Shown here: piece after piece, positions 3,729 to 45,775 of the stretch
Numbering within the stretch: position 1 is the stretch's first letter
Layout: every line of letters starts with the position of its first letter
Assembly: GCA_021234155.1 (NCBI GenBank)
Contig: JAJEKV010000011.1
Location: forward strand, 20,042,677 to 20,106,676
Length of the DNA stretch: 64,000 nt
Direction of reading: 5' to 3'
Source: Isoetes taiwanensis
Lineage: Eukaryota; Streptophyta; Lycopodiopsida; Isoetales; Isoetaceae
Made by a program: the position numbers and the translations under genes
The notes under the pieces: model-generated
The model's database searches: none
The model's input: the letters and a program-made list of their open reading frames with translations, nothing else
Told to the model about the DNA's origin: nothing

Positions 3729-3733
3729 ATTGT
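3729..3733. repeat. Left target-site duplication of Tat-like element
   Basis: ATTGT directly precedes the TG of the 5' LTR and is repeated directly after the 3' LTR. Confidence 0.9.
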
Positions 3734-6217
3734 TGCTGCCACTCATGGCAGCATAGAAGAGCCTTAGACATATCTGACATTTGGCTCATTGAATGCATGA
3801 GGAAATATGAAGACCATTGGCTTCCAGAAGCACTTGAAGACTCAGTCAAACAGCAAAAGGAACAAATGTTTAGAAGAACCAAAGAAGGACATTCACTTGG
3901 TTATCTCAAAATTGGAGGATGGACAAGGTTTTTGATTATCATCCAAGGTACTAGAGATCACTCCTACAAGATTTGAAGTCACTTGTTGAAGAATTGCGAG
4001 ACATGAGCATGGTATGAAGTCTATTTCATGATTTGAGCATTTGAAGTTTGGATTCTTGATGTTGTAAGAGTTTTGCCTAGCCAATTTCCCATTTTAATTG
4101 CCATTTGACTCATATTCCACCTTCCTATTTCTTGTCATCTCTACACTTCATACTATCATTTCCCATACATCTATATTTCATCATACCATACCTTGGGATT
4201 GTTCAATTCACTTTTTCCTAGTCAAAATGACCCACACACTCATGATCCATCCATACATTCATAAGTTTACCAAAAGAAACTAAAAAAATGTTGAGGCATT
4301 ACCCTACTTTCTCTCACTCCAAAAAACCTAAGGTTAAAATGATCACTAGGTTGAGGAAAGGTTGTCACCTATGTCTAGTTGGCAAAGGGAATTGTTTATG
4401 CCCACATCATCACTCACAAGTCCACATCACCCTTCATTACACACGTGTCAATCCACATCATTTTCATTCCATATCCACCTCATAAAAACATTTTGACTAG
4501 GGAAAAGTTTTTGTCATCCAATGGTACCACATCAGCAGTACATTTGCCACCTCACCAAAATTTATGTCCAGTCACCCCCCTTCACTCTTTTGACAAAAAA
4601 TCAAAGTGCTCCAAATCATCTTTTGACAAAACCACCTGGTAGCCCTTGTGAAAATATGCCACCTGGCACAAAAAAAATTTTCAAATTGAGTTTATTTGGA
4701 CCTCCTTAAGCTACTTCTTGGGAAACGTGCCTTCTTTGGAAAAATGGCAAAACCTACCTACATCTACCCCCATCTATCTACCCTCTCATTTTTCCGCCAA
4801 GTGGCGTCCCCTGGCGTGCGCGTGTCGAATCACGAGCCGACGCTGGCGTGGGAGGAGACCACGCAATCAGTTAAAATGGCTTCAGAAGTCTATTTATATC
4901 CTTGTTTAACTTTTTGCTCTTGGCCTGTGGGATATATCTGCTGAAGGAAGCCAAGAACCCTTAATTTTTGCCAACCAAGAAACGGAATTTTTGGCCGTAT
5001 CCGACCACAAATTCTCATCATTACCTTCCGAATCCACCTCTGCAACATCAAGAAAACCAAATCGAAGCTAAAAGACAAAGGATCTGGCCGTAGATTCAAG
5101 AATTTCAACAGAACAGGGCCTTTTTAAAGAGGGCAAATCTCTATCACGAATTCGGGGGCTTTTACGCTAAATTGAAGATTGCTGGTGTGAAGTACATGCA
5201 AAAGTGATCTCTAGCTGCGGATTCGACCCTCCTTGCCGCTCAAATTGATCATTGATCAAGAAAAGTGACCATAAACCCGTCCGTTTTTCGGAAATATGCT
5301 TTGCTCATTAACTGTGGGCATCGAAAATGATGTGATTCCTCCAATTTGATATATCAAGTGAATGAAAATCCAATTTGGTAATATCTTTCCCTTTGAAATT
5401 TTTGAAATTCCAAAAAAAAAAAAAAGCTCTGAAATAGCTTCTATATTGCATAAAGGCTAAAGAAAATTCAAAAAATAGATTATTTCGTTTCTTTCAACTA
5501 GTATGCATATCAATCAACACTGTTCTATGGTTAATAAGGAAAAAACTCTACTCACCATAATGCCATTCCGTATCTCATCACCTTAGCTGCACCATTGCAT
5601 ACTCTATAGTTGAACTCCTGAAGCTCTAGTGATTTTAATAGCAAGGGTTGATTTAGGATATCTCTACTGTTCCTTTTACATAGTTTTCCTACCTAAATAT
5701 CGATAAAATTTGAAAAAAGCATTCTCTGTGGCAAAAGACATAGTCTGTCAGTTCATAAAATCCCATAGTTCCAAAATATCTTTATCTCTAGACTGTATTA
5801 GTGTTTCCACGTGACCCTTTAGACCCTTTAACACCTCCCCAGGTGGTTTCATTCAAAAAAGATATTCCTAAAGAATTCTGCAAAAAGGAGCTCTCTGCCG
5901 AGGGCATTGACCAAATTTTGACCTAGTCAGTTGTGTGATTTTAAAGTGCCAAATGATATCTGACTTCAGAATATATTTTGCACATATATCACATCAATTG
6001 TCTAGTATACTATTGCATTGATTTCAGAAGAAAATTCAATTTATATTGCTCAGAATCTAAAGGTTAGTACTGTGCATTTTCTTCCAATTTGGGAAACTGG
6101 TTCTAACAGACTCCTTGAAGGTTGTTTCTGCAAATTTTGAGCATAGAGTGGTTGCCTAAAGCAATCTGGAGGTCCTATACCATTCCAGTTGAGGGATTGC
6201 CAGGAATACCCTCAACA
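3734..6217 (+). repeat. 5' LTR of Tat-like element
   Basis: The 2484-bp LTR begins TGCTGCCACTC and ends CCCTCAACA. Its first bases form a perfect 7-bp inverted repeat, GCTGCCA ctca TGGCAGC (3735-3752). A TATTTATA box lies at 4891-4898, in a region that could be the U3 promoter. There is no long coding frame; the short frames match those in the 3' LTR and are shared repeat sequence, not genes. Differences from the 3' copy are scattered single bases and 1-4 bp changes in homopolymers. Confidence 0.95.
4891..4898 (+). promoter_or_regulatory. Candidate TATA box in Tat 5' LTR
   Basis: TATTTATA lies between a GC-rich block (CGAATCACGAGCCGACGCTG) and a T-rich leader. The same arrangement is found in the 3' LTR near 13614-13621. 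The assignment rests on position and motif only. Confidence 0.4.
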
Positions 6218-8746: not shown

Positions 8747-10101
8747 CAGAAGGTGCTATTAAAGAAGAAGAGCTTGAAGAAGAGGAACTCAAACAACTTC
8801 ATCCTATTCTGGTAATCAATGCTAGTACTGAAAAACAAGTAAGAGAAATCCAAATAGAGAAAAATGGTCAGAATAGAGTCTTGTATGTTGGAGATATGTT
8901 TAGAGAAGAAGATGAATGCACATTAACTAAATTTTTTAATGAATGGAAGGATGTGTTTGCTTGGGACTATGATGAATTAGTTGGTGTTGATAAGAACATT
9001 TGTGAGTTTGAGATAAAGGTTAAGGAGGGTATCAAACCTGTGATGCAAAAACTCAGAAGAATAAATGTATCCTTGCTTGACTTAATCAGGGAAGAATTAC
9101 TTAGAATGAAAGATGCAGGTGTGATCACTGAAATATCAAATCCAGAATGGTTGTCATGCATTGTGCCTGTTGAAAAAATAAATAAAACTATTAGAATCTG
9201 CATTGACTATAGGGATCTGAATAAAGCCACTGTTAAAGATTGCTATCCTTTGCCTTTTTTGGAAGAAGTTTTACATGCAGTTGCAGGGAAGGAGATCTAC
9301 TCTTTCTTAGATGGATTCTCAGGGTTTAATCAGATCTCTGTCAAGCTAGAAGACCAGCCAAAGACAGCTTTCATTACACCATGGGGAACTTTTGCCATGA
9401 AAAGAATGCCTTTTGGTTTGATGAATGCTCCAGCAACTTTTCAAAGAACAATGGACGCTATCTTCAAGGACATGCCTTCAACTGCATTCAGGGTTTTTCT
9501 TGATGATCTTTGCTTGGGATCAGCCTTAAAGGATCATTTTAATTATCTAACTAAAATATGTGTTATGTGCAGAAAAGGGGGTGTAAGTTTAAATCCCAAA
9601 AAATGCGTGTTTCTCTGCTCCAAGGGAGGATTGCTAGGCCATGAAGTATCTTCCAAAGGGATTCAAGTAGCTGAAAGTAAGGTGGATGCCCTGAAAAAAC
9701 TAGCACCACCTAAAACTGTTAGGGAAGCAAAAAGTTTTTTGGGGATGGTAAGTTTTCTGAGGATGTATGTTCCACATTTCTCTAATACTGTGGCTCCTAT
9801 ATCTGATCTCACCAAGGTTGGCAAGTATACCAAACATGAGAGCAAGTTAATTATGGTTGAATGGACTCAGACATGCCAGCTTGCTTTTGATAATATTATA
9901 CAAGCCATCTCCAATTCTGCATTACTTAAACCTCCTGATACATCCAAACCCTTTGAGGCTTATATCAGTATAACCAAAAGGGCTGTAGGATTAGTTCTGC
10001 TGCAAGAAGAAGAGGTGGTAACCTTTGCCAAAAAATTTGGTCTAACACTTGAAATGAGATATCCAAGACTTGAAAAAGTGCAAAGACCCTTATGTTCTTG
10101 A
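8731..10101 (+). CDS. Tat-like reverse transcriptase (pol fragment)
   Basis: A 456-codon open frame runs through all RT blocks: WLSCIVPVEKINKTIRICID, DYRDLNKATVKDCYPLP, SFLDGFSGFNQI, TAFITPWGTFAMKRMPFGL, NAPATFQR, and the catalytic VFLDDLCLGS, where the family YVDD/YLDD box reads FLDD. The thumb (GHEVSSKGIQV, KSFLGMVSFLRMYVPHFS) follows. The start of the gypsy RNase H (AYISITKRAVGLVLLQEEEVV, MRYPRLEK) then appears before a frameshift and stop at 10101. It is the longest intact piece of this element. The frame overlaps the end of the upstream RNase H module by 16 bp in another frame, another sign of indels. The enzyme would copy element RNA inside particles. Confidence 0.92.
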   Translation: MLEHLAEGAIKEEELEEEELKQLHPILVINASTEKQVREIQIEKNGQNRVLYVGDMFREEDECTLTKFFNEWKDVFAWDYDELVGVDKNICEFEIKVKEGIKPVMQKLRRINVSLLDLIREELLRMKDAGVITEISNPEWLSCIVPVEKINKTIRICIDYRDLNKATVKDCYPLPFLEEVLHAVAGKEIYSFLDGFSGFNQISVKLEDQPKTAFITPWGTFAMKRMPFGLMNAPATFQRTMDAIFKDMPSTAFRVFLDDLCLGSALKDHFNYLTKICVMCRKGGVSLNPKKCVFLCSKGGLLGHEVSSKGIQVAESKVDALKKLAPPKTVREAKSFLGMVSFLRMYVPHFSNTVAPISDLTKVGKYTKHESKLIMVEWTQTCQLAFDNIIQAISNSALLKPPDTSKPFEAYISITKRAVGLVLLQEEEVVTFAKKFGLTLEMRYPRLEKVQRPLCS

Positions 10102-11668: not shown

Positions 11669-12456
11669 GAATTAATAGCTATATTTAGAGTATGAGTTAT
11701 TAGAGTAGAAACAAAGTCATGAAATATTTCAAAAGACAAAAAACAAGTTGCATTTCATTAGATAAAAATTGTCCTGAAGATTAGTAAGTTAGAGCTTGAA
11801 TTATTTATAAGTCTTAAAAAAAAATATATATATATAAAGAATGTGTGAAGTATGTCATGAGAAGTTAAATTTTCAAGTTAGATAAGTAAGTTGTAGGATT
11901 GCACCTTGTTGTCATAACCTTTTGCAGAGATAACTATTCCATGAGCTAGACGATTCTTGAAGAACAGGTATGTGGTGCTAATGATTAATTCAGTTTCCAT
12001 TCAGGAACATCCTACTGGCCATACATCATTCATTTCATCTTTTCACTCTCCATTATCTTCACCTCACATATGTGTGCTGCTATCATCCTCACCATCCAGC
12101 AAGCACACTCAGCTAACATGTTTGTTATATACTGTATGCAGGTGCAGGTTCATCCTTGACTCATTCGCTCCATCTGCTCATTCATTCACTTCAACTCACA
12201 TATGTGTGCTGCCATCATCTTTACCACCCAGCAAGCACACTCAGCTAACATGCTTTTACATACTGTATGCAGGTTCACCCTCAATATCATTCATCATCAT
12301 CTGCTCCATGTCTGGCCTGATCTCCATGAAGAACTCTGTTTCTCAAACATATGCTCCACATCCACATTGCCATTCATTTTTCCATCATGGCAATCTTCTG
12401 CACTTTGAAGTCATCAGGGGTCTGGCAAACCAGTCTCCCTCTTTTTTTTAGCATGA
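11669..12456 (+). other. Tat 3' internal region with 132-bp tandem duplication
   Basis: No pol domain is present. A unit beginning ctcacatatgtgtgctgc at 12063 recurs at 12195 (offset 132 bp). Both copies end with actgtatgcagg and differ at scattered positions. The open frame across it is low complexity and repeat-driven. The last bases before the 3' LTR are pyrimidine-rich (ctccctctttttttta) rather than the polypurine tract expected on the plus strand. Confidence 0.6.
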
Positions 12457-14940
12457 TGCTGCCACTCATGGCAGCATAGAAGAGCCTTAGACATATCTGA
12501 CATTTGGCTCATTGAATGCATGAGGAAATATGAAGACCATTGGCTTCCAGAAGCACTTGAAGACTCAGTCAAACAGCAAAAGGAACAAATGTTTAGAAGA
12601 ACCAAAGAAGGACATTCACTTGGTTATCTCAAAATTGGAGGATGGACAAGGTTTTTGATTATCATCCAAGGTACTAGAGATCACTCCTACAAGATTTGAA
12701 GTCACTTGTTGAAGAATTGCGAGACATGAGCATGGTATGAAGTCTATTTCATGATTTGAGCATTTGAAGTTTGGATTCTTGATGTTGTAAGAGTTTTGCC
12801 TAGCCAATTTCCCATTTTAATTGCCATTTGACTCATATTCCACCTTCCTATTTCTTGTCATCTCTACACTTCATACTATCATTTCCCATACATCTATATT
12901 TCATCATACCATACCTTGGGATTGTTCAATTCACTTTTTCTAGTCAAAATGACCCACACACTCATGATCCATCCATACATTCATAAGTTTACCAAAAGAA
13001 ACTAAAAAAATGTTGAGGCATTACCCTACTTTCTCTCACTCCAAAAAACCTAAGGTTAAAATGATCACTAGGTTGAGGAAAGGTTGTCACCTATGTCTAG
13101 TTGGCAAAGGGAATTTTTTATGCCCACATCATCACTCACAAGTCCACATCACCCTTCATTACACACGTGTCAATCCACATCATTTTCATTCCATATCCAC
13201 CTCATAAAAACATTTTGACTAGGGAAAAGTTTTTGTCATCCAATGGTACCACATCAGCAGTACATTTGCCACCTCACCAAAATTTATGTCCAGTCACCCC
13301 CCTTCACTCTTTTGACAAAAAATCAAAGTGCTCCAAATCATCTTTTGACAAAACCACCTGGTAGCCCTTGTGAAATATGCCACCTGGCACAAAAAAAATT
13401 TTCAAATTGAGTTTATTTGGACCTCCTTAAGCTACTTCTTGGGAAACGTGCCTTCTTTGGAAAAATGGCAAAACCTACCTACATCTACCCCCCCCATCTA
13501 TCTACCCTCTCATTTTCCGCCAAGTGGCGTCCCCCCTGGCGTGCCAGGTCGAATCACGAGCCGACGCTGGCGTGGGAGGAGACCACGCAATCAGTTAAAA
13601 CGGCTTCAGAAGTCTATTTATATCCTTGTTTAACTTTTTGCTCTTGGCCTGTGGGATATATCTGCTGAAGGAAGCCAAGAACCCTTAATTTTTGCCAACC
13701 AAGAAACGGAATTTTTGGCCGTATCCGACCACAAATTCTCATCATTACCTTCCGAATCCACCTCTGCAACATCAAGAAAACAAATCGAAGCTAAAAGACA
13801 AAGGATCTGGCCGTAGATTCAAGAATTTCAACAGAACAGGGCCTTTTTAAAGAGGGCAAATCTCTATGCGGAATTCAGGGGCTTTTACGCTAAATTGAAG
13901 ATTGCTGGTGTGAAGTACATGCAAAAGTGATCTCCTGCTGCGGATTCGACCCTCCTTGCTGTTCAAATTGATCATTGATCAGTAAAGCTGACCATAAAAC
14001 TGTCCGTTTTTCGGAAATATGCTTTGCTCATTAACTGTGGGCATCGAAAATGATGTGATTCCTCCAATTTGATATATCAAGTGAATGAAAATCCAATTTG
14101 GTAATATCTTTCCCTTTGAAATTTTTGAAATTCCAAAAAAAAAAATAGCTCTGAAATAGCTTCTATATTGCATAAAGGCTAAAGAAAATTCAAAAAATAG
14201 ATTATTTCGTTTCTTTCAACTAGTATGCATATCAATCAACACTGTTCTATGGTTAATAAGGAAAAAACTCTACTCACCATAATGCCATTCCGTATCTCAT
14301 CACCTTAACTACACCATTGCATACTCTATAGTTGAACTCCTGAAGCTCTAGTGATTTTAATAGCAAGGGTTGATTTAGGATATCTCTACTGTTCCTTTTA
14401 CATAGTTTTCCTACCTAAATATCGATAAAATTTGAAAAAAGCATTCTCTGTGGCAAAAGACATAGTCTGTCAGTTCATAAAATCCCATAGTTCCAAAATA
14501 TCTTTATCTCTAGACTGTATTAGTGTTTGCACGTGACCCTTTAGACCCTTTAACACCTCCCCAGGTGGTTTCATTCAAAAAAGATATTCCTAAAGAATTC
14601 TGCAAAAAGGAGCTCTCTGCCGAGGGCATTGACCAAATTTTGACCTAGTCAGTTGTGTGATTTTAAAGTGCCAAATGATATCTGACTTCAGAATATATTT
14701 TGCACATATATCACATCAATTGTCTAGTATACTATTGCATTGATTTCAGAAGAAAATTCAATTTATATTGCTCAGAATCTAAAGGTTAGTATTGTGCATT
14801 TTCTTCCAATTTGGGAAACTGGTCCTAACAGACTCCTTGAAGGTTGTTTCTGCAAATTTTGAGCATAGAGTGGTTGCCTAAAGCAACCTGGAGGTCCTAT
14901 ACCATTCCAGTTGAGGGATTGCCAGGAATACCCTCAACAA
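12457..14940 (+). repeat. 3' LTR of Tat-like element
   Basis: It is 2484 bp long, the same length as the 5' LTR, with identical TG start, CA end and terminal hairpin. Scattered differences include a C-run expansion near 13490 and one-base indels near 12938 and 13374. Confidence 0.95.
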
Positions 14941-19958: not shown

Positions 19959-19963
19959 CCATT
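19959..19963. repeat. Left target-site duplication of chromovirus
   Basis: CCATT immediately precedes TGTGACGG and is repeated after the 3' LTR. Confidence 0.92.
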
Positions 19964-21611
19964 TGTGACGGTCCAAGGGAATATACGCCATAAATACGTA
20001 TATTCCTGGATCCGTCACCATACAAGTCTATCTTTATAGCCTTGTATACCATAGATTGTGGCACTAGGGGGCATGGCTAAGTTATTCTCATAACTTAGCC
20101 AACCATAGGTTAAGCCATTATCCACGTGGCCTTAACCTATTGGGGCACCGCCACACAGGACTCACCCGATTGGTGCCACGTGGCATCCTAGGTGGACCTA
20201 ACTTATATAGGCATAAACCCCTAACCCTAGACCTCTTTTTCAGCCCTAGCACCCCCGAGACTCACCTACATGTTCGAAACCCCGTTTTGAACATCGCTCG
20301 TTAATGGCATAGGGCCGGTGCAAGAGCCCAATGAGGGTAGACCCGCTCTTGGGTAGGAACAGCAGCTTGTGAGTCGAAGACCATGGAGCCTCGGATCCGG
20401 AGGGGAGAGCATCGAGGAGCAGGTATGTAGGATAGTAGTTGTGATAGCTCATCTGGGCTTAGCATTCCAGGTGTGCTAGTATTTTGTGTCTAGAGTAGAG
20501 CCATCCTAGACCCCATATTCAACATCTTGAACCCTAATCAAGGAACCCTAACTGTTAGTTAGTTGTATGATTAGGTTAAGATGTTCCTCTTATGATTATT
20601 CTCATGATGTGATGATTATATGATGTTGGTTGATCATGTTTGCTCCTCTTGTATCGGGAAGGGGGGTAGAGACCTAGGGCCATATGTAGTATGTTCCTAG
20701 AGTAGATCCCTTAGTTCCTATTAGTTGCGGCCTGTGCATAGGAGCCCACCAGGCTATTGAGGCTATGATATGACTCAGCACCAGATAACGAGGCTAGAGG
20801 GAAAGTGGAGGGAGGATCCCCCACGGGAGTGGGGGCTTCGGGGATCCCATAGTGGGCTAGGCTTATGGTGGGTCACTTAGGTGTGGGCCGAGCATGGGTC
20901 CGGACACCTCTCACGGGGCAATGGTGTTGCCCCGCCTCTCGGAGCTGCAAGTGTTGGCTTGGCTCTCGTTTTGGGGTTCGGTCAGTGCAGAATGGGTGTG
21001 TGTCGCCACGATTCTCTAGCCGCCACCTCCTCTAGACCCCAGGAAGGGGAGATGCAACCCTTCCCCGCCTCATCGGACCGAGGAGATGCAACACGGGAGT
21101 AGTCCCGATGGGTGATGCCATGGGATTGCGTCCCAGGAAGGCTAGAGTCCCGTCGAGCCTGATCTAGCCCATCCGCAAAGTATGCACAGGGAGGGGCGGA
21201 TGGAGTGGTCAACCCTAGCCATTGTTCTATGCCAGCCCTGCGCCATCGCCATGACTTCGGTGCTGCTCTATCTTGAGGCCTAGCGGTCGGTCACCCTCCT
21301 TACGAAGTCCGGCGGGGTAGGAGCTCTCTGTTTTATGGTTTGTGATTATCATCTATGCATTGGTTTATGTGCGATGCACTACCCTCCGAGGTAGTATTTG
21401 TATATGTTTTATGCTAGTTACGACGTGTTATAAACTTCATTTGTTATAGGAGCCCATAGGGGAAGGGCGCGCAAGACACCTTCGTGTTCCCTTCCCGCAC
21501 TAGGAGTTCTCTCGAGTCACGGGGTAGACGAAGGGCCCATGCGGTTGATGAGCCGGATGGGGATTTCTGCCGAGGGCGGTACGGGCGTTTGTTTAGCGAG
21601 GGAGCGTCACA
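19964..21611 (+). repeat. 5' LTR of chromovirus
   Basis: The 1648-bp LTR has 7-bp terminal inverted repeats, TGTGACG and CGTCACA. A TATATAGG box at 20204-20211 is followed by an ACCCTAGACCTC leader. Related LTRs occur at 41579-43141 and 59581-61249 on the opposite strand. Short frames inside are not genes. Confidence 0.95.
20203..20211 (+). promoter_or_regulatory. Candidate TATA box of chromovirus LTR
   Basis: TTATATAGG occurs after a CACGTGG-containing block (G-box-like, near 20143 and 20177). Both motifs are kept in the 3' LTR at about 31739. Transcription would start a few tens of bases downstream. Confidence 0.5.
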
Positions 21612-21612
21612 A

Positions 21613-21624
21613 TGGTATCAGAGG
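21613..21624 (+). other. Primer binding site, initiator Met tRNA
   Basis: TGGTATCAGAGG starts one base after the 5' LTR and matches the plant initiator-Met primer site TGGTATCAGAGC except in its last base. Confidence 0.88.
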
Positions 21625-22191
21625 CGATGTTCTTGGTTGACCAAGAACTAGCACTGACCATAACCATGAAGTAGTCTAACAGGCCTATAGGGGTGTGGAA
21701 TAAACATTTCCACCATCGAATCACAGGAAAAATGGGGAAAAAAAAAAATTTTCTCCTAGGTAGTGGGTCAGGAATTAGGCTAAGTGTTAGACGAAGATTT
21801 GAGGGAGGCAAACGAATCTTCTAGTAAATTTGGAGTGAAAATTATGCATCTGCATCAAATTTCACCTAAAATGGGTCGAAGAATCATGCCAATCGGAGGC
21901 CCAGTGAAAAATGGCGCAAAATTCATAAATTGCACTTGAACCATTAGGAAAATTCGAAAATTTAAAGATAATATCAATTAATGTAGGTTAATATATACAT
22001 TAATAGTTAAATAATTAATTAAATATCTTGTAATTAATAAGGGGGGGCTAATAAATAGGGGTAATTATGGTAGGAGAATATTCCCAGGGACCCTCCTTTT
22101 TAAATATCGACACCTCATTTTCTCTCTCAACCCTTCACCTCCAACCTTCTCTTGCCCGACCCTTAGTCACCAAGCTTACGAACCATAAGAT

Positions 22192-23280
22192 ATGGCTCGC
22201 ACCAAACAAACTTACGTGAAGCCTCGAACAAGACCGACCCTCTCCATGGCGCAGTGCCAGGCTTACATGTCAAGAAGATCCCGAGCACCTCCTCACCCAA
22301 GAAAGGGGAAGAGGAGCTTCCCCACCAAGAAGCAGCAGCTAGCAAGCAAATGGGCCTCATACCATGACGCCGAGGAGAGTCCCAAGAAGAGTCTCTCCCT
22401 GCAGGCACCTGTGAGGACCCCATGAAGTCTCGGGCATTTCCCCTGACACCGAGGTGGAAGAAGAAGGGGGAGGAGCAGGCAAAGCAGCAAGTGGAGGAAG
22501 CGGGCCTTCAAGGCCCAAGAAGAAGGGAAAGGAAAAAGTAGCAGAGTGGCTCGGAGGAGAGGGCCGCCAGAAGAAGCTGAGCCGGAGAGGGGAGCCGAGG
22601 GAGGAGGAGAGGCGACGAAGAGAAGGAACGACGGCCTCGGGCCGACCCGGGTTTATTCAAGAGCCCCGCCGTAAGAGGAGCCGCAGTGGAAGAGGAAGAG
22701 GAGGAGGAGGGGCAGCAGGATCCCGACGCGAGGCCACCCTACCCCAGTGGCGGAAACCACCCAAGGTGGTGAAGAAACAAAAGGTAGGGGAGCGGGCATT
22801 TACAAGCAAAACAGACCGAGTTCAAAAGGAAGATGGTGGCATACAAGGAGTACCTTCGCCGCCGGGCGAGGTACAATGAGTGGTATTGCCGCCCGGGGTG
22901 TGCAAATTGGCGTCGTGGTGGGCGGCGGGCCAAAGAAGAACCAGCCCAAGCCACCCCCACCTAGGCCGGAAAAACCCAAGAGGGTTCACCACGGGCGACA
23001 AAGACATAATGGGGTGTTTAGGGAGATTCGGCACTTTCGGATGTGCACGAATCTCCCTCGATAAGGAAGGCCTTCGAAAGCCGCCTCCTTAGGGAGGTTT
23101 TTTTCGGCGAGCTCCGACGGACATGTGGTAACCCCTCTAATGACCCGCTCGCAAGAGGCCTCGGCGAGGCCGGTGCGTGCTCTTCGAGGAGGGAAACCTT
23201 CTCATATCCATGCTAAGCGGGTAACCCTTATGCCTAAGGATATCCACTTAGCACGGAGAATCCGCAGGGAGAGGCCCTAG
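22192..23280 (+). pseudogene. Histone H3-like protein carried in chromovirus leader
   Basis: The ATG at 22192 begins MARTKQT, identical to the H3 tail start, and KKQQLASKWAS near codon 47 resembles the H3 KQLATKAARKS block. A long basic, low-complexity tail follows in shifting frames (to about 22980). The histone fold then reads GVFREIRHFR (alpha-N), TNLP, and in a shifted frame IRKAFESRLLREV (the H3 LIRKLPFQRLVRE region with the same spacing). It continues as RSQEAS (alpha-2) and ends in HIHAKRVTLMPKDIHLARR plus IRRERP and stop at 23278-23280. About 20 of the last 24 residues equal H3. A +2 shift near 23058 is cancelled by a -2 shift near 23110, so the fold keeps its H3 length. The tail is far longer than in canonical H3, as in some CENH3 variants, and IRHF..TNL also recalls plant CENH3. 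Frame breaks mean decay or base errors. H3 homology is secure; subtype and function are not. Confidence 0.87.
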
Positions 23281-24084: not shown

Positions 24085-25616
24085 ATGGCGCCCAGCAACT
24101 TTGAGAGATGGTACAATGCTGCCAGCCATATCCATGTGCTTCCAGTAGATCAAGCCTTCTCTGTGTTTGATCACTTGTTTGATCTTCACGCAACTTTGAC
24201 TAGAACACCCTACTACACAGACATTATGTGCCAATATGACCAGCAGGTCCTGCCTTGGGAAGTTAGACTGCCTCCTAGGGGAGGGAATTGGGTTTCCCTT
24301 GAGACACTTACCCAAGCCTTAGGTCGAGAGTCGGCGGGGATCCGAGAGGCAAGAAGCAGCTATGGGATAGGACTAGGACCATGCCCGATTACATGACCTG
24401 CAGACATAATAGGCATAGGTACCTTTCAGCTCAGACAGCCCTTGCCCTCTTCATGCATTATAAGTCAATTAACAAAGTAGGGGAACCCTCTGTTCAGCCC
24501 TTAGACTTAGCACCACTCGATACCCGTAGGGCCCAGGATCAAATCCTGAATATAGAGTCCTCCGCCTACGAATATTACGGCACGACGTCGGGCGCACCAT
24601 CCCTACAGATCCATGAAGACTACGAGCAGCTGGGGGAGCAGAACCCAGAGTGGGAGAGCAGGGAGGCAACAAGAATGCGGAGATATGCGTCGAGGCATGA
24701 CGACGACGCGAGAACAGCTACCGATCCACCAATCGGCATCACGGCCTTGTCGCCGATAGTCATCGACGGGGAGGAGTACATTTTTGCAAATGACATCCTC
24801 AATTTGTCCTACTGTCAGGAACAGGGTCTTCGAATCGACGAGCTCTTGGGTATGATAGCACACGGGAAGAGCACAGACATCATCGACTACTCATACCAAG
24901 AGATCCCAAGGGAGCTGGCGGAGAGACACTCTTATGCTGGGGAGACAATGTCGGATATAGCAGCCTATCAGCAGATAAGGGAGATCTATCGACAGCAGGA
25001 GCCTATCATCTCAGAGGAGGAGTTCCAGCAGATACAGAGCACACTCTACAAACCAGGGAAGGGCCCAAGCTCAAGCCGACCAGTTCGAGCCAGGAGCATG
25101 AGGGAAGGGTCCAGCAGCATTAACTTGGACAATGCAACCAGCATGTGGAGGGATCATGAAGACCTTATGGCGGTGGATGCCTACGGCGAAGCAGCTCAAA
25201 GGAAGGGCACTGGATCGCGAGGCGTAGGGAAGGGTGCAGCACTTCGCTACTATCTTCCAGCCCTCAGCCAGGGGCAAATGATAGTCTTCCACAAGGAGTT
25301 CAGCCCAAGGGGGGAAGAATCCGTGGCACTTCTCATAGCGCTTTCGGGCTTCGGGCAGCACTCGAAGATATACGCCCATGCTGATCACATCATTCTTTTC
25401 AACAGGGCAGTCGCGCTCCATTGCCTCGACTTTGCGAGAGGGCACCTGAGGGATGCAACACTCTCAGTGGTAGCAGCAACAGCACCAGAACTCCCGGAAC
25501 CAGAGATGGCCCGAGCACTTGAAGGAAGATCAACGAGGAACATCTTGCGCAACCTCGGCAAAGGCCTCCGATTCAGGGATGTCAAGAACTTCTTCAGGCT
25601 TTCGGGAGGCCACTAA
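24085..25616 (+). pseudogene. Unknown ~510-aa accessory protein of chromovirus
   Basis: The start chosen is the ATG at 24085 (MAPSNFERWYNAASHIHVLP). This frame runs to about 24350, where one indel moves the reading to the frame that continues as LWDRTRTMPDYMTCRHNRH and stays open for 411 codons to a stop at 25614-25616. One correction would therefore give about 510 residues. It is soluble-looking, without signal peptide or membrane segments. It has an acidic, Glu/Gln-rich middle (EEEFQQIQ), a Ser/Arg patch (PSSSRPVRARSMREGSSS) and a C-terminal region that looks globular (YYLPALSQGQMIVFHKEFS, IYAHADHIILFNRAVALHCL). I recognise no domain; it is not gag, protease, envelope or chromodomain. It lies between the H3-like frame and gag, after a TATA box. 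Base composition resembles the neighbouring gag. The long open frame suggests recent selection. Confidence 0.7.
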
Positions 25617-25835: not shown

Positions 25836-26931
25836 CAAGGAACTCAAGTGCAGGATCTCAAGATCAGCACCGACCACGCAATTGGGTACCAAGGAATTTG
25901 TTTGGCAGGGAACAAGAAGATGTTGAGCGTGATATGTCACCGAGGCATCAAACGCAAGGTTGGTGCGGATGAGGAATCGATGCAACACCTCATCAACCTG
26001 GCGACACCTCTCATGAATGCAGAGGAAGATGGTCACCCACCTCCACCTTGTTTTCCGGGTGGTGACGAAGTCCCTCAGCAGGAAGGGGAGGGCAACCAGG
26101 GGAACGTCAGGGATAGAAGAAGGAAGAGGAGAACCAGGAGCCCATCATCATCTAGCTCCAGCTCATCAGACAGCTCTTCCAGTGAGGACAGCTCTAGCTC
26201 CGACAGTCAGTCTGACACACCTAAAGCAAGGAAAAGAGCAAGAAAGACAGGTGATTATCAGAAAAAGGTGGATAGTGCTATGAGCAATGTATGGAAGACA
26301 AGGAAGCTCGGCCAGTTCTCGAGGAAAGACGATCCGCATGGAGGTCGGAGCATGGCTTGATGAAATGGAAGAGTTTGGCAACTCATACGGTATGAAAGAC
26401 AAGGACATAGGGAAAGTTGCTACAGCTAACCTTATTGGACCGGCAAGGATCTGGTGGAAGGGATATGCTAAATCCAACAAGCTGAAGAGGAACAACTGCA
26501 GGTTTAAGACCTTCAGCAAGGCTTTCCGCAAGCACTATGTGCCAAGGTCTCATACTAGTAGACAGATCCAGCAGTTTTACAGGTTGAATCAGGGTAGCTT
26601 ATCAGTGGCTAAGTATACCGAAGAATTTATGAGGCTCAGGCTGAATGTTCCTGGAGTCTCAGAGAGGCAAGCCGTGGATACTTACATTGAGGGGTTGAAC
26701 AGCAATATCAAGAGGCTTGTTAGAGCAATCAACCCGAAGTCAGTCGCGCAGGCCGAAGATAAAGCTATAAGTTTGGAGGAGGCACCAGCAACTCCAGCAG
26801 AGAAGCAGTCAACCTTCAGGGGTAAGAGTTCAGGGCAGTATCAGGGACAATATCAGGGTAAGCAATCAGCAGCTACACCATCGTGGAGTCGGCGGCAAGG
26901 TAAGGGTCGGCAAAGCTTTTGGGGACCGTAA
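25836..26931 (+). pseudogene. Chromovirus gag
   Basis: The N-terminal part has a serine-rich run between basic blocks (RRKRRTRSPSSS, then KARKRARK; 26115-26240). After a frameshift near 26320 the capsid-type gag domain follows: GAWLDEMEEFGNSYG, GPARIWWKGY, FSKAFRKHYVPRSH, QQFYRLNQGSLSVAKYTEEF and VDTYIEGLNSNIKRLV. This is the retrotransposon gag fold typical of Ty3/gypsy. It should form the particle and bind RNA. A linker with QYQGQYQG repeats leads to the zinc knuckle in the next frame. The start is uncertain because the open frame begins at a splice-acceptor-like site without ATG. Confidence 0.85.
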
Positions 26932-27356
26932 GCCAACGCATCGTGGGCAGCGCTCTTAAGCGTCTCCTAGACAGTCTGCCGAAGGAAAAGAGACAGGAAT
27001 GCATTGAGAAGAAGTTATGCTTCAGGTGCTTCCAGCCAGGGCACCGGACACATGATTGTCCATTCGTCATGCAGTCAGCTTTGGCAGAACTCTTGGATTG
27101 GGACTCCCCAACAGAAGCGGACGAGGACGATGACCAGCAGGAGGGCCACGACTTCATAGATGGTGAGTGTCACATATGTGCAAACATTGAGTCAGATGAG
27201 ATAGAGAATCAGTCAACTGTCATCGCGGCTGATGGGATCATAGATAGTAATCCTTATGTAGTCCTCATAGATACAGGTAGCTCTCATAATTTTGCATCTC
27301 CTAGATTGGCTGCTCTAATGAAGAATAAGGTATTGAAGTCTAAGCCAAGGCCGTAG
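26919..27356 (+). pseudogene. Chromovirus zinc knuckle and aspartic protease
   Basis: The frame holds one CX2CX4HX4C knuckle, CFRCFQPGHRTHDC (about 27020-27062), an acidic linker and the retropepsin active site VVLIDTGSSHNFASPRL (27258-27305). The active-site triad is DTG, as expected. A frame change and stop at 27356 split the protease. Its second half (MGAEVMDIGRYDLIVGMEFL) continues in the next frame. Confidence 0.87.
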
Positions 27357-27360
27357 AGTT

Positions 27361-28864
27361 ATGGCCAAATCCGGCGCCATTCGGCACACTAAGGGGAGGA
27401 GGATCACCTTTGACATAGACCTTAGTGGGGCTAAGTGGCCGATGGGAGCAGAAGTCATGGACATCGGAAGATATGATTTGATAGTGGGGATGGAATTTTT
27501 GAAGCCAGCCAAAGCCATGATTGATTGCGACCGGAATGAAGTCACCATGACGGCACCAGACGGCAGCAAGTTGATAGTGAAAGGTAAGAAGCTAGATTCT
27601 CCTATGCAGTGTATTTCTTTGAAGCAGCTAAGGAAGAGTATAGAAAGGAATAAGGTGGATTACATCTTGAGGATGGAATCAGTTGAGCCAGGCAAGCAGG
27701 ATGGAAGTGACACAAAGGGAAATCAGCTGCCCAGGCAGATAGCAAGGCTTATTTCAGAGTTCAAGGATGTATTTCCGGATGAAATCCGGCGTACCCACCC
27801 TTATAGGGGTGTGGAATGCGAGATCACATTGGCTCGGATCACGAAGCCTACCAAGAAGGCGCCATATAGAATGAGCATCACGAAATTGGCCGAGCTCAAG
27901 AAACAAATGCGAGGAATTGCTCGAGCTTGGATTTATAAGAGCAAGTGTGTCTCCTTTCGGAGCACCTATACTCTTTGTCAAGAAGAAAGATGGAAGCTTA
28001 AGAATGTGCATAGACTATCGCCAGCTTAATAAGCAGACGATAAAGAATAAGTATGCATTGCCAAGGGCGGATGACCTAATGGATCAGCTACAAGGAGCAA
28101 AGGTATTCTCTAAGATTGATTTGAGATCAGGATACCATCAGATAAGAATAAAAGAAGAGGACATCCATAAGACTGCTTTCAGAACGCGGTATGGTCATTT
28201 TGAGTTTACAGTAATGCCCTTTGGATTGTCGAACGCTCCCGCAACATTTATGCGCCTTATGAATGACATCTTCAGAGACTTCTTGGATGAGTTTGTTATT
28301 GTCTTCTTCGACGACATCCTAATCTACAGCAAGTCCCTTGAAGAGCATTGTCAGCATCTCAGGAAAGTGTTGGAGAAGTTGAGACGTCATCGGTTGTATG
28401 GGAAGCTCTCTAAGTGCCACTTCGCAACAGGCCGGGTGGAGTACTTGGGGCATGTAGTAACATCCGAGGGAATTTCCACAGATCCATCTAAGATTGAGGC
28501 AATAGTTGATTGGCCAGCTCCAAGGAATGTGGCAGAAGTAAAAGCTTTCTGGTTGGCGGGATACTACAGAAAGTTCGTGAAGGACTTTGCTAAGTGGGCG
28601 TCCCCTCTGTCGGACCTCACTAAGGCCAAGAAGATTAAGGATTGGGCTAGCCATTGGCTAGAGAAAGTCCAAGCTTCTTTTGAGAAGCTTAAAGAGGCCT
28701 TAACAACAGCACCAGTGCTTGTTCTCCCGGATCCGAGTAAGGATAAGTTGGTAGCAACAGATGCAAGCAAGATAGCAACAAGGCGCCTTGATGCAAGAAG
28801 GAAGGGTAGTCGCCTACGACTCAAAGAAGATGAACGACGCCGAGCAACGCTACCCAACCCATGA
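27361..28864 (+). pseudogene. Chromovirus protease end and reverse transcriptase
   Basis: The first frame (27361-28029) ends the protease and begins RT ([28 protein letters not shown]). After a shift near 27920, the second frame (27917-28864) runs through [72 protein letters not shown] and the catalytic [12 protein letters not shown], then [15 protein letters not shown] and the thumb. The FFDD box is normal for chromoviruses. The small deletion in the [12 protein letters not shown] motif (here [11 protein letters not shown]) and a shift near 28790 mark damage. RNase H follows directly. Confidence 0.93.
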
Positions 28865-29117
28865 TCAGGAGCTGCTAGCCATTGTCAGGGCATTGAGGAT
28901 ATGGAGGCATTATCTGCTGGGAAGGAAGTTTCAGTTGGATACTGATCACCAGAGCCTTCAGTATCTTTTCACCCAGCCACTCCTCAACTTAAGGCAAAGG
29001 AGGTGGATGGAATTCCTTGAGGAATATGATTTTGATATTATATATAAGCCTGGTAAGCTTAATGTTGTAGCGGATGCCCTCTCCGTGAGACCATTTCGAA
29101 CAAAGGACGCATTGTAA
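28700..29117 (+). pseudogene. Chromovirus RNase H
   Basis: [13 protein letters not shown] begins the RNase H (first catalytic Asp at about 28758). It continues after a frame change as [39 protein letters not shown] (Glu), [14 protein letters not shown] (Asp) and [13 protein letters not shown] (final Asp), so the catalytic set is complete. The domain sits in the usual Ty3 place between RT and integrase and would degrade the RNA strand of the hybrid. Unlike the Tat element in this window, there is no second RNase H. Confidence 0.9.
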
Positions 29118-29196
29118 TCGCGATTTCCACTCTTTCGAGTGAGTTTGGCAAGAAGATTGAGGAGTCCTTGCCAACCGATGTGGACTTCAAGGAGGT

Positions 29197-30427
29197 ATGG
29201 GAAAGCCTTTCCAAGGAAGCGAAACGGATAAGGAGCGGGAAGCCTTCAAGCATTATAAGAAGGAAGGCAACCTGTTGTATCACAAGCATAAGTTGTGTGT
29301 GCCCGAATCATCAGGGGTAAGGAAGCTAATTCTTCATGACACACATAACAGCCCAATAGCAGGGCATGCTGGCTTCATGAAGACCTATTTCAAGATTCGG
29401 CGTAGCTACTTCGCCGTGAATGAAGAGGCGATAGCTGCATATATTCGGGATTGCCGCTTATGTCGCCAGATCAAAGGCGAGCAACTTCGATTCCGGTGCT
29501 TTGGAGCCATTGGGGGTGCCAAATGCAAAGTGGGAGGTCATAAGCATGGATTTCATCACAGGTCTCCCTAGAACTCTTCGAGGCAAGGATGCATTGATGG
29601 TGGTCATAGATAAGTTATCTAAGATGGCACATTTTGTGCCTTGCAAGACTACCGACACCGCATTAGATACTGCCAAGTTATTCGTAAAGGGAGATTTTCG
29701 ACTCCATGGCATGCCTCGGGGAGATAATATCTGATAGGGATTCCAAGTTTATGAGTGCCTTCTGGCAGGACCTCTTCAGCACCATTTCGACGAAGCTCTC
29801 CATGAGTACGGCATATCATCCCCAAACAGATGGCTAGACGGAAAGGACGAATCGGATCATTGAAGACATGCTTCGAAGCTATGTGTGGAACAAGCAGTCC
29901 AAGTGGGATGAGTACATTCACTTGGTGGAATTCGGCCTAACAAGCAGCCAGCGTGAGTCATCTCGGATGTCTCCTTTCATGGTGAATTACGGGGTACCGA
30001 TTATTAACCCCGATACCGGCACAATCCGTGGTCCAAGGTAGAAGTGTCCCAGCCAGATGTTAGGGGATATCAAGCAGCCTAGTAGAGGAAGTAAGGGGTT
30101 ATTTATTGGCGGAAAAGAAGTCGGCGAAAGAGTGTAGCCGACGCAAACCTGACCGTAAGGGAGTTTAAGGTGGGCGTCTACCGCTTGGTTAAAGATCAAG
30201 GTGAAGCAAGCCAAGCCGGATTGGGAGTCGCAAGAAGCTCGGCCCCTAGGTGGGCCGGGCCGCTCAAGATTTTGGAGAGAGTGGGCTCTCAAGCCTACAA
30301 GTTGGATCTTCCAGCCCATCTTAAGGTCCACAAGGTCTTCCACGTAAGTTTATTAAAGAGGCACAATCCTAACCCTGAGGAGGTTTTGGATACTCCAACT
30401 TTGTTGGAAATGACGAGGAGCAAGTAG
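29197..30427 (+). pseudogene. Chromovirus integrase
   Basis: Broken frames give FKHYKKEGNLLYHKHKLCVP, then the HHCC zinc-binding part (HDTHNSPIAGHAGFMKTYF, DCRLCRQIKGEQL). The catalytic core begins with EVISMDFITGLPR and VVIDKLSKMAHFVP (first Asp) and continues through an ISDR-type segment near 29730 (second Asp) and AYHPQTDG (Glu region near 29815). The C-terminal GPY/F-type region (AGPLKILERVGSQAYKLDLP, HVSLLKRHNP) ends near 30390. At least three frame changes are present. The homologous minus-strand copy at 44.4-45.4 kb helps to define the order. It inserts element cDNA; the chromodomain that follows would bias target choice. Confidence 0.88.
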
Positions 30428-30442
30428 AAATAGTGCCCCGAA

Positions 30443-30640
30443 TTGCTTCTTGATAAGTCATTCAAGAAGACTAGGAGGTCCCAGTTCCTCCAATATTTGG
30501 TTAAGTGGAAGCACTTACCCGTGGAAGATGCGACATGGGTACTGAAGCAAGACTTGGAGAAGCAATACCCAGAGTTTATGAAGGAGTTCGATGGGCGAGT
30601 CGTCTCCGACTTGGTCGACCCCGACTTGCCAGGTGGTTAG
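30443..30640 (+). CDS. Chromodomain of chromovirus integrase
   Basis: The frame reads LLDKSFKKTRRSQFLQYLVK, then WKHLPVEDATWVLKQDLEKQ and YPEFMKEF. This is a chromodomain: a variable first strand, then YLVKW, the acidic DATW turn and a C-terminal helix. The first aromatic cage residue is less clear (F in FKKTRR or an upstream residue), while Y/W positions of the YLVKW and DATW strands are kept. Chromodomains at Ty3 integrase ends direct insertion into chromatin with certain histone marks, mainly methylated H3. It is intact here and nearly identical in the minus-strand copy at 44.0-44.3 kb. A stop and shift separate it from the upstream integrase frame. Confidence 0.88.
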   Translation: MLLDKSFKKTRRSQFLQYLVKWKHLPVEDATWVLKQDLEKQYPEFMKEFDGRVVSDLVDPDLPGG

Positions 30641-31499: not shown

Positions 31500-33145
31500 T
31501 GTGACGGTCCAAGGGAATATACGCCATAAATACGATATTCCCTCGATCCGCCACCATACAAGTCTATCTTTATAGCCTTGTATACCATAGATTGTGGCAC
31601 TAGGGGGCATGGCTAAGTTATTCTCATAACTTAGCCAACCATAGGTTAAGCCATTATCCACGTGGCCTTAACCTATTGGGGCACCGCCACACAGGACTCA
31701 CCCGATTGGTGCCACGTGGCATCCTAGGTGGACCTAACTTATATAGGCATAAACCCTAACCCTAGACCTCTTTCCAGCCCTAGCACCCCGAGACTCACCT
31801 ACATGTTCGAAACCCCGTTTCGAACATCGCTCGCTAGGCATAGGCATGGTGCAAAGCAGCTGGCCAGGTAGACCCGTTCTTGGAGTAGGAACAGCAGCTT
31901 GTGAGTCGAAGACCATGGAGGCGCCCGGATCTGGAGGGAGAGCATCAGGAGCAGGTATGTAGGATAGTAGTTGTGATAGCTCATCTGGGCTTAGCATTCC
32001 AGGTGTGCTAGTATTTTGTGTCTAGAGTAGAGCCATCCTAGACCCCATATTCAACATCTTGAACCCTAATCAAGGAACCCTAACTGTTAGTTAGTTGTAT
32101 GATTAGGTTAAGATGTTCCTCTTATGATTATTCTCATGATGTGATGATTATATGATGTTGGTTGATCATGTTTGCTCCTCTTGTATCGGGAAGGGGGGTA
32201 GAGACCTAGGGCCATATGTAGTATGTTCCTAGAGTAGATCCCTTAGTTCCTATTAGTTGCAGCCTCAGGCATAGGAGCCCACCAGCTGCTATTGAGGCTA
32301 TGATATGACTCAGCACTGATAACGGGGCTAGAGGGAAAGTGGAGGGAGGATCCCCCTCCGAAAGTGGGGGCTTCGGGGATCCCATAGTGGGCTAGGGCTT
32401 ATGGTCGGGTCACTTCGCGGTGGGGCGAGCATGGGTCCCACACCTCCCCGGGGCAATGGTGTTGCCCCCCTCTTCCCTGAGCTGCAAGTGTTGGCTTGGC
32501 TCTCGCTTTTAGGGGTTCGGGGGTACGAATCGTGTGTCGCCATCGATTCTCTCTCCCAGCCACGCACCTCTAGACCCCGGAAGGGGAGATGCAACCCTTC
32601 CCTCCTCATCCGGACCAGGGAGATGCAACCTGGAGTAGTCCCGATGGGTGATGCCATGGGATTGCGATCCCAAGGCTAGAGTCCCGCCGAGCCCCATCTA
32701 GCCCATCCGCAGTATGCACGGGAGGGGCGGATGGAGTGGTCAACCCTAGCCATTGTTCTATGCCAGCCCTGCGCCATCGCCATGACTCGGTGCTTATCTT
32801 GAGGCCTAGCCGGGTCAGTCACCCTCCTTACGAGTCCGAGCCGGGTAGGAGCTCTCCCCGCTTTATGGTTTGTGATTATCATCTATGCATTGGTTTATGT
32901 GCGATGCACTACCCTCCGAGGTAGTATTTGTATATGTTTTATGCTAGTTCTGACGTGTTATCGCTTCCGCTGTTATAGGAGCCCATAGGGGAAGGGCGCG
33001 CAAGACACCTTCGTGTTCCCTTCCCGCACTAGGAGTTCTCTCAGAGTGCGGGGTAGACGAAGGGCCCATGCGGTTGATGAGCCGGATGGGGGATTTCCTG
33101 CCGAGGGTACGGCCGGGCGCCGTATGTTTAGCAGGGAGCGTCACA
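31500..33145 (+). repeat. 3' LTR of chromovirus
   Basis: The LTR is 1646 bp, colinear with the 5' LTR. The most divergent part is 31796-31950, where small indels cluster in GC-rich runs. Terminal TGTGACG and CGTCACA are intact. Confidence 0.95.
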
Positions 33146-33150
33146 CCATT
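33146..33150. repeat. Right target-site duplication of chromovirus
   Basis: CCATT follows the terminal CGTCACA and matches 19959-19963. Confidence 0.92.
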
Positions 33151-44021: not shown

Positions 44022-44324
44022 CTACACAAATCGACATGCACGAGCCGATTTCTTGGAGGAGATGACCTTGCCGTCCCATTGCTCCATAAACTGTGGGTAC
44101 TGCTTTACTAAATCCTTCTTAAGTACCCACGTCGCGTCTTCCACTGGCAAGTGTTTCCACTTGACCAAGTATTGGAGGAATTCCGACCTCCTTGTCTTCT
44201 TGAAAGCTTTATCAAGAATCATTTTACGAACTATTTCCAAATTTGCTCCTCCGTCATTTCCAACAACGTTGGAGTGTCCAAGACTTCGATGCGGATTTGG
44301 AGTATGCTTCTTCAACAAACTCAC
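44022..44324 (-). CDS. Chromodomain (minus-strand chromovirus)
   Basis: Reads MSLLKKHTPNPHRSLGHSN, then MILDKAFKKTRRSEFLQYLV and KWKHLPVEDATWVLKKDLVK. It is almost the same as the chromodomain at 30443-30640, including the DATW turn, and has a somewhat longer tail (SSKKSARACRFV). It forms the C-terminus of integrase. Being open, and close to the plus copy, it allows comparison of which residues are conserved in the family. Confidence 0.87.
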   Translation of the reverse strand: MSLLKKHTPNPHRSLGHSNVVGNDGGANLEIVRKMILDKAFKKTRRSEFLQYLVKWKHLPVEDATWVLKKDLVKQYPQFMEQWDGKVISSKKSARACRFV

Positions 44325-44329
44325 GTGGA

Positions 44330-45440
44330 AGACCTTATGAATCTTTAGGTGTCTTTGGCAATTCCAACTTGTAGGATTGATTACCTACTCTCTTGATTAT
44401 TACGAAGGGTCCAGCCCACCTTGGAGCAAGCTTCTTGCAATTGCCAATCCTGAAGCTTCACTGCTTCACCTTTATCTTGAGCCATACATCATCTCCAACT
44501 TTGAACTCTCCTCGATCAGACGATGCTTGTCCATTGATGCTCTTGGACGACTTCTTGCTTGCTAGCGAGATAACCTCGAACTTCTTCCACGAGCTCGGCT
44601 GCATATCGGCCAACATCTGCTGCGAAACTTCTACTTTTGACGGGGTTGTGCCAAGTGTCCGCGGGTTAAACATCGATAGCCATAATTGATCATAAATGGC
44701 GACATTTGGGGCGATTCTGCTTGGTGCTATTGTATGCAAACTCCACCAAGTGAATAAATTCTTCCCACATACTTTGCTTATTCGGACATAGTTTCGTAGC
44801 ATGTCTTCTAAGATCTGTTGGTCCGCTCTGTCGGCCATCCGTCTCGAGGATGATACCGTGCTCATGGATAGCTTGGTCTGAATCGTCGCCAAGAGGTCTT
44901 GCCAAAAGGCACTCATGAACCGGATCCCCTGTTTCGGAGATAATCTCCCTTGGCATGCCATGAAGCCTGAAGATCTCTTTGGTGAAGAGCTTTGCTGTAT
45001 CCATAGCTGTATCTGTGGTCCTGCAAGGCACAAAATGTGCCATCTTCGACAACTTGTCGACCACTACCATCAAGGCATCCTTGCCTCTCGCTGTTCTTGG
45101 GAGTCCTGTGATGAAGTCCATGCTGATTACCTCCCACTTAGCGTTTGGCACCGCTAATGGCTCTAATGCCCCTGGAATTCGAAGCTGCTCCGCCCGCCTT
45201 CTTTGGGCATGGCTGACATTCCTTGATGTAGCGAGCTATTTGCTTCTTCATTCCTGGCCAATAATAGCTGCTGCGCACTTTGAAATATGTTTTCATGAAT
45301 CCCGCATGACCAGCTATTGGGCTGTTGTGCGTGTCATGGAGGATCAACTTCCTTACACCTGATGATTCGGGTACGCACAACTTGTTCTTATGGTATAACA
45401 GGTTGCCTTCCTTCTTATAATGCTTGAAGGCCTCTCTTCT
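44330..45440 (-). pseudogene. Integrase of minus-strand chromovirus
   Basis: The minus strand gives, from 45440 down, FKHYKKEGNLLYHKNKLCVP, the zinc-binding region AGHAGFMKTYFKVRSSYYWP with CQPC, then (frame change near 45140) EVISMDFITGLPRTARGKD, VVDKLSKMAHFVPCRTTD, MPREIISE and a shifted core end (FVHLVEFAY-like at about 44740). The C-terminal segment GEFKVGDDVWLKIKVKQ lies near 44470-44520. All parts align with the plus-strand element. Several frameshifts make it dead. No RT or RNase H of the chromovirus precedes it; upstream of 45440 the sequence is foreign. Confidence 0.82.
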
Positions 45441-45775
45441 AGTGTTGGGGTGGTAAGAATGGGATAGCCTCTCTTCTAGTGTTGGGGTGAAAAGAAGTCC
45501 TAGGTATGGTGGGATCCCATTCCGTAAAGGAAGCCTTGCTTGATCTTGTGCTTGATCTTTTGGTTGTGCCGATGGTTGATGGTTGTGTTTCCTCTCTCGA
45601 GTTTGGTTTTGATTTTTAGGCGGGGGTTTGGGTGGGTTGGTGTATAGGGTGGTTGTGCATTCATTCTTTTTCATGTTAGGCCCTTCCCCCCTCTCCCTTC
45701 CCCTCCCCCTTTTTGGCTTTCTGATGGTGTCATGGTGGTGACCTTGTGGCATTGATCCGATCTTGTAGTACCCTT
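45431..45775 (-). other. Junction segment between chromovirus and Tat-like halves
   Basis: About 330 bp related to neither element. It holds a 41-bp duplication (cctctcttctagtgttggggtg at 45431 and 45471) and a low-complexity basic/proline coding region (TNPPKPPPKNQNQTRERK). One open frame (45950-45138) crosses from Tat linker through this segment into chromovirus integrase. Confidence 0.6.

Follow-up and report, generated by a model that had tools for sequence, protein, structure and literature searches.

The window, that is, the whole stretch of 64,000 nucleotides of Isoetes taiwanensis contig JAJEKV010000011.1 that was analysed, contains a complete LTR retrotransposon on the + strand, with paired LTRs, a target duplication, a primer site, and the domains from gag through the integrase-chromodomain. 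The 5' LTR (19964..21611), which reads TGTGACG...CGTCACA, aligns by self-blastn to the 3' LTR (31500..33145) with 91.9% identity, and the target duplication CCATT (19959-19963 and 33146-33150) flanks both LTRs. Directly after the 5' LTR the sequence reads TGGTATCAGAGGCG (21613..21626), a primer binding site which we take to be of the initiator-Met tRNA type. An H3-like ORF that is broken in this copy (22192..23280) consists of a tail of about 265-280 aa beginning with MARTKQT and then an H3 histone fold, and between this ORF and gag there is a second ORF, ORF2 (24085..25616), which has no family assigned to it and has a frame break near 24303-24393. The gag capsid (26287..26931; Pfam Retrotrans_gag 1.7e-17, Ty3_capsid 1.1e-16) is followed by a zinc knuckle and aspartic protease (26919..28029; Pfam RVP_2 9.2e-5, with the zf-CCHC models only sub-cut-off), reverse transcriptase and RNase H (27917..29114; Pfam RVT_1 3.2e-40, RT_RNaseH 4.7e-28), the integrase from its H2C2 zinc domain to its SH3-like domain (29161..30424; Pfam Integrase_H2C2 5.5e-11, SH3_Tf2-1 4.5e-16), and a C-terminal chromodomain (30434..30637; Pfam Chromo, 46.6 bits against a cut-off of 25.1). 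Judged by its domain order and its chromodomain, the element is a chromovirus. It has in common with plant chromoviruses, which are Ty3/gypsy elements with a chromodomain ending the integrase, the LTRs, the Met-type primer site, and the order gag-protease-RT-RNase H-integrase-chromodomain, but it differs from them in having the H3-fold ORF and ORF2 ahead of the gag capsid. A first-pass annotation had placed the H3-like gene between the primer site and gag; it does lie in the 5' region of a chromovirus, but ORF2 intervenes before the gag capsid.

ORF2 has a 437-aa frame without a stop codon (24303-25613). The part from 24381 to 25613 had no homologue among 7,996 scored protein database candidates, and ORF2 matched no Pfam family above cut-off. 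No H3 match was present in the window outside 22192-23280. Remains of an integrase and chromodomain whose protein is 66-78% identical to that of the H3 element lie at 44055-45446 on the - strand. Another element has an LTR-like pair at 3731-6217 and 12454-14939 that is 98.5% identical, with homopolymer indels among the differences, and its RT (9160-9948) is 37% identical to that of the H3 element.

In the window copy the H3-like ORF starts with MARTKQT at 22192 and ends with IHAKRVTLMPKDIHLARRIRRERP up to the stop codon at 23278-23280; its last block aligns to H3 at 20 of 23 positions. The open piece from 23065 to 23277 matches histone H3 chains of solved structures (phmmer, best E 2e-7) and passes the Pfam Histone model with 29.4 bits against a cut-off of 26.4. 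The histone fold as a whole was placed at 22969..23277 by tblastn with P0026, the protein of an unbroken copy (E 9e-29), and by a frame-aware alignment in which 22969-23274 spans H3 residues 37-135 and 46 of 103 positions agree. When the C-terminal block is left out, the score is 47, whereas 60 dinucleotide shuffles averaged 30.9 and reached 43 at most; the signal outside that block is modest but exceeds chance. The MARTKQT start and the H3 C-terminus that the first-pass annotation had read are thus both confirmed. The same annotation had described a shift of frame by +2 and back by -2. The breaks do exist but their pattern is a different one, because the alignment uses frames 0, 2, 0, 1, 0 and hence changes frame more often.

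The frame breaks belong to the window copy or to its assembly since six other copies read in one frame, as described below. The differences between the two window LTRs are strongly clustered: 181 of 185 lie inside 22 patches that cover 432 columns, the longest identical run is 314, whereas none of 2,000 random scatterings gave one above 109, and 23 of 25 clusters of differences contain CG, compared with 67% of random spans. When the window H3 segment was compared with the unbroken copy L025, 199 of 225 differences fell in 18 patches covering 341 of 1,121 columns, and four pairs of unbroken copies had 1-3 patches each. Because the LTRs outside the garbled patches differ by only 1 substitution in 1,237 columns, the insertion looks young and old decay of the window copy is not favoured. 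The simplest reading is that the breaks are probably base-call or consensus errors in a young insertion. The Isoetes taiwanensis genome of 1658.30 Mb, in 204 scaffolds and 909 unplaced contigs, was built with Nanopore (v9.4.1 flow cell), Illumina, and Bionano data, according to the available text of the genome paper (PMC8566536).

The genome assembly (1,658,258,908 bases, 1,110 contigs) was searched for other copies of the element, here called group A. Of 1,260 candidate places 40 were scored, and every one of these, including that of the window itself, has the H3-like segment; in the remaining 39 the main stretch is 79-87% identical to the window segment. All ten copies retrieved through the positions of 5' LTRs or LTR pairs have both ends of the ORF as well, and at least four of these copies are also among the 40 places. 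The distance of the segment from the listed LTR start was 2,170-2,192 bases in 11 of 30 of the 40 places that were checked; the LTR listing holds 40 scored of 4,447 candidates and so the remaining 19, which are without a listed LTR, are uninformative. The first-pass annotation had named two findings that would count against it, namely, that other family copies lack the segment or that the segment is a nested host histone pseudogene. Neither refuted it: the other copies carry the segment, and a nested host pseudogene is ruled out by its occurrence at 40 of 40 places and by the fixed LTR distance where this was checked. The proposal that a chromovirus carries an H3 gene in its 5' region is supported.

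The whole frame is unbroken in 6 of the 40 copies and codes for 362-369 aa without introns. Of the 40 group A copies, 36 show MARTKQT and 34 show IHAKRVT.MPKDI, while the divergent copies L063 and L064 read MARTKQTARKF, which is the canonical tail start. P0026, the unbroken protein of L025, has a complete H3 fold by profile (Pfam Histone, 98.4 bits, residues 257-365) and matches H3 chains at E 7.8e-32. The residues R63, R72, R83, and R116, which we take to be DNA contacts of H3, and H113 and D123, presumably H3-H3' contacts, are all kept in the printed alignments. Group A differs from H3 in loop 1, at the start of alpha-2, and by the changes K56 to M and Y99 to E, in what we assume to be the H3 residue numbering; these changes could prevent ordinary deposition. 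The tail contains the basic blocks KKKGKEK, KKRERERE, and KRRNDG. Since the protein has neither the 136-aa length nor the tail of canonical H3, we file it as an H3-fold variant and not as canonical H3. That it is an H3-fold protein encoded by the element is almost certain. The structure model of the 369-aa protein was poor (mean pLDDT 48.7) and unsuited to a fold search.

The histone ORF has been kept by strong purifying selection. Over the 15 pairs among the six unbroken copies, with NG86 and with the limit that the copies are related and hence not independent events, mean dN was 0.0196, mean dS 0.278, and dN/dS 0.071 for the whole protein; the ratio is thus far below 1, which the first-pass annotation had proposed as a check. 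By block, the ratio of means was 0.060 for residues 1-44, 0.130 for 45-118, 0.033 for 119-200, 0.009 for 201-264, and 0.023 for the fold (265-369). Codon-position differences were mostly at third positions (e.g. 4/1/30 and 14/7/68). Isolated differences, which are substitutions flanked on both sides by six matching bases, numbered 389 synonymous and 122 nonsynonymous for 39 copies against L025, where about 22% synonymous would be expected if they were random. The synonymous bias was also present in broken copies (305 to 109 in 34 copies, the unbroken L058 being left out); L058 had 17 synonymous and 1 nonsynonymous, and the window copy alone (L019) had 5 of each. In L025, L026, L034, L035, and L047 the ORF dS of 0.097-0.368 exceeds the divergence of the noncoding leader (0.013-0.049) and spacer (0.071-0.116), an unexplained excess. 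The most constrained block of P0026, residues 201-264, is outside the histone fold and has no convincing solved relative; for residues 187-264 the best solved-structure match was at E 0.045. Because this block is under the strongest constraint, the main function may be one other than that of the histone part, and the constraint points to a second function in the tail itself.

A genome-wide Pfam Histone search, with 150 places scored of 8,705 candidates, uncovered a second group of elements, related to the first. Fifteen of the 150 score 164.1-165.4 bits, and L065, the one that was read, is a canonical H3 of 136 aa. The other 135 score 144.5-154.7 bits, below the canonical H3 group. Nine of these were examined, three chosen for long frames and six picked at spaced ranks, and all nine are of the element type (group B), with an H3 fold in which 75-80 of 91 residues (82-88%) are identical to host H3 and with a related N-terminal part ahead of the fold. 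In the three chosen for long frames the ORFs are 411-459 aa from the ATG used, with 320-368 aa before the 91-aa fold, and they do not begin with MARTKQT. The group B N-terminal part is not related to the group A tail, which had no tblastn match at E 1e-3 in the six spaced group B loci. Within group B the dN of the fold was 0.005-0.133 and dS was often saturated.

ORF2 homologues are present in both groups. In group B they lie downstream in 8 of the 8 loci with downstream sequence, two being matched with the window's ORF2 (E 1.7e-10 and 1.65e-11) and six with a group B ORF2. The stretch from gag to chromodomain was followed in one group B copy of the nine, C1018. Its LTRs are 95.3% identical, the primer site TGGTATCAGAGCC is found after the 5' LTR, its gag capsid is 62%, its integrase pieces up to 83%, and its chromodomain 58% identical to those of the window element, and a protease is present. 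In C1018 (L068, L069, L077, L078) neither RT nor RNase H was detected in the stretch from protease to integrase, which may be due to an internal deletion. A further shared open frame (DPGPPEQDYGQRYGEYPE...) lies after ORF2 in L069 (1692-2186) and L070 (1663-2274), and in L069 it is before gag. LTR retrotransposons of this genome carry a gene for an H3 variant that lies after the primer site and ahead of gag.

In a tree of the folds, group A forms one clade (support 100/99, and 100/100 without the CENH3 rows) and group B another (95/72, and 98/98 without these rows). For a single capture of both groups p-AU was 0.117, and 0.098 with the CENH3 rows, which neither establishes nor rejects it. An origin of group A from CENH3 was considered because of the motifs REIRHFQ..TNLLI and RVTLM. 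Group A joins the Arabidopsis CENH3 sequence used for comparison at a support of 49/40, with long branches and with host CENH3 absent from the tree. The group A fold is identical to the H3.3 used for comparison at 58 of 86 positions and to the Arabidopsis CENH3 at 44 of 84; it aligns to H3.3 without gaps but with a two-residue gap to CENH3 and CENP-A, and it does not have the longer loop 1 of the CENH3 type. By identity to these sequences group A is nearer to canonical H3 than to CENH3, although its place in the tree is not firm. With the H3 variants and CENH3 it has the H3 fold in common, and it also keeps MARTKQT and the canonical loop-1 length, whereas the long foreign tail is found in the element protein. 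In host H3 the motif AQEF takes the place of the AQDF of H3.3. Among the nine group B folds, six have AQEF as well, a hint of a host source and no more.

A protein database query with the unbroken protein, for which the candidates excluded proteins shorter than about 200 aa, gave 2,476 matches among 7,964 scored candidates. The best 120 of these cover 24-44% of the query, and there was no near-full-length relative among them; no viral contig was confirmed. P0019, P0012, P0024, and P0025 are 392-404 aa long; their start resembles ARTKQTARK, and besides about 290 aa of other sequence they have an H3 fold. P0019 represents 36 sequences, and P0012, P0019, and P0024 are one clade in the fold tree, in which P0025 was not included. 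Possibly, they are another long-tailed H3 family and perhaps mobile too. P0008, P0010, and P0020, at 221-223 aa, are H3 variants that have additional residues around loop 1 and are extended at the C-terminus.

The best explanation overall, to which we give a probability of about 50%, is that the elements captured an H3 which, with its tail swapped, would be under selection for acting on element chromatin. The capture would have been from host H3, by way of an mRNA or an intronless gene since the ORF has no introns. The H3-like protein would be made from element RNA, be brought into the nucleus by its basic tail, pair with host H4, and be laid on element DNA or the surrounding chromatin. As the fold is conserved while the tail is swapped, the fold would be the DNA anchor and the tail an element effector that evades the normal marking of H3 tails. 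By binding an element or host partner the tail would then keep the element expressed or guide the integrase complex. The specific role in chromatin, in which the protein would be deposited together with host H4 on element DNA or close to it and the tail would serve as effector, is favoured because the factor common to both groups is a fold whose ordinary tail has been replaced, and we put it forward tentatively, at somewhat less than even odds.

The first-pass annotation had offered chromatin targeting, packaging of the cDNA, or interference with silencing marks at H3K4 as functions. In packaging, the H3-like protein would condense reverse-transcribed DNA in the particle or en route to the nucleus, outside chromatin. 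The very basic tail blocks, the retained DNA-binding fold, and the position of the ORF next to ORF2 and gag are in keeping with this, but the H3-H4 pairing surfaces would not be needed and yet the fold is conserved throughout, and the group B folds are nearly canonical; we consider it rather unlikely. It is also possible that the variant histone in chromatin is a landing mark for the element's own integrase chromodomain. The window element has such a chromodomain, which in our own reading (WKHL) is without the third aromatic cage residue, and most plant group II chromodomains are likewise without this residue and have an interacting factor that was not found, according to the available part of PMC3350952. 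But no common tail mark is evident, given that the group A tail is without a tblastn match in the spaced group B loci, and this docking is distinctly unlikely. Improbable, too, is a decoy in which the ARTKQT.RK tail mimics H3 and titrates silencing readers or writers: MARTKQT is kept in most group A copies and ARTKQTARK in L063 and L064, but a conserved fold would be unnecessary for this. Moreover, the three group B ORFs read from the ATG start otherwise, by which the idea of interference at H3K4 is weakened as well. Finally, that the segment is foreign to the element, whether as a host H3 pseudogene inserted into a single copy or as an assembly artefact, is hardly credible, because the broken window copy and its error-prone assembly are set against the occurrence at every scored place, the LTR distance, the synonymous bias, and the unbroken copies.

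Retroelements are normally the objects of histone-based silencing. In a literature search we met with no earlier description of a core histone in a retroelement, but subscription papers and preprints were thinly covered and absence from print is unproven. Additional ORFs in plant LTR elements are known from a review whose available text is without the word 'histone' (PMC7264820). Captured domains are also known, as in the orchid m6A-demethylase elements, and section 12 of that report, on 121 angiosperm genomes, names no histone among the extra domains (PMC9289625). As in those elements, so far as these sources describe them, a host-type domain is here fixed in a Ty3/gypsy family, whereas the cargo here is a core histone and the host is a lycophyte (PMC7264820, PMC9289625). 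The main text of the Isoetes genome paper is without the word 'histone' (PMC8566536). Histones of giant DNA viruses and a bracovirus H4 have been reviewed in a text that, in the part available, has neither the word 'retrotransposon' nor 'retrovirus' (PMC9145170). There, as here, a selfish genome has its own core histone, but the viral histones of that text belong to DNA viruses and here a retroelement carries a tail-swapped H3 (PMC9145170).

The element H3 is thus a retroelement counterpart to the viral histones, and in at least two groups with different tails elements took over the core histone fold under strong selection. These two groups are a natural experiment that separates the roles of the H3 tail and the H3 fold. 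The element H3 is also a possible partner of the plant group II chromodomain, the ligand of which was not found in the work covered by the available part of PMC3350952. Since 135 of the 150 scored histone matches are below the canonical H3 group and nine of nine examined among them are of the element type, element genes may abound in the histone annotation of such plants. It is conceivable, although we hold it to be doubtful, that a retrotransposon lineage builds its own chromatin, in which element-tailed H3 together with host H4 on element DNA or on its targets would form nucleosomes that are self-marked and partly exempt from silencing.
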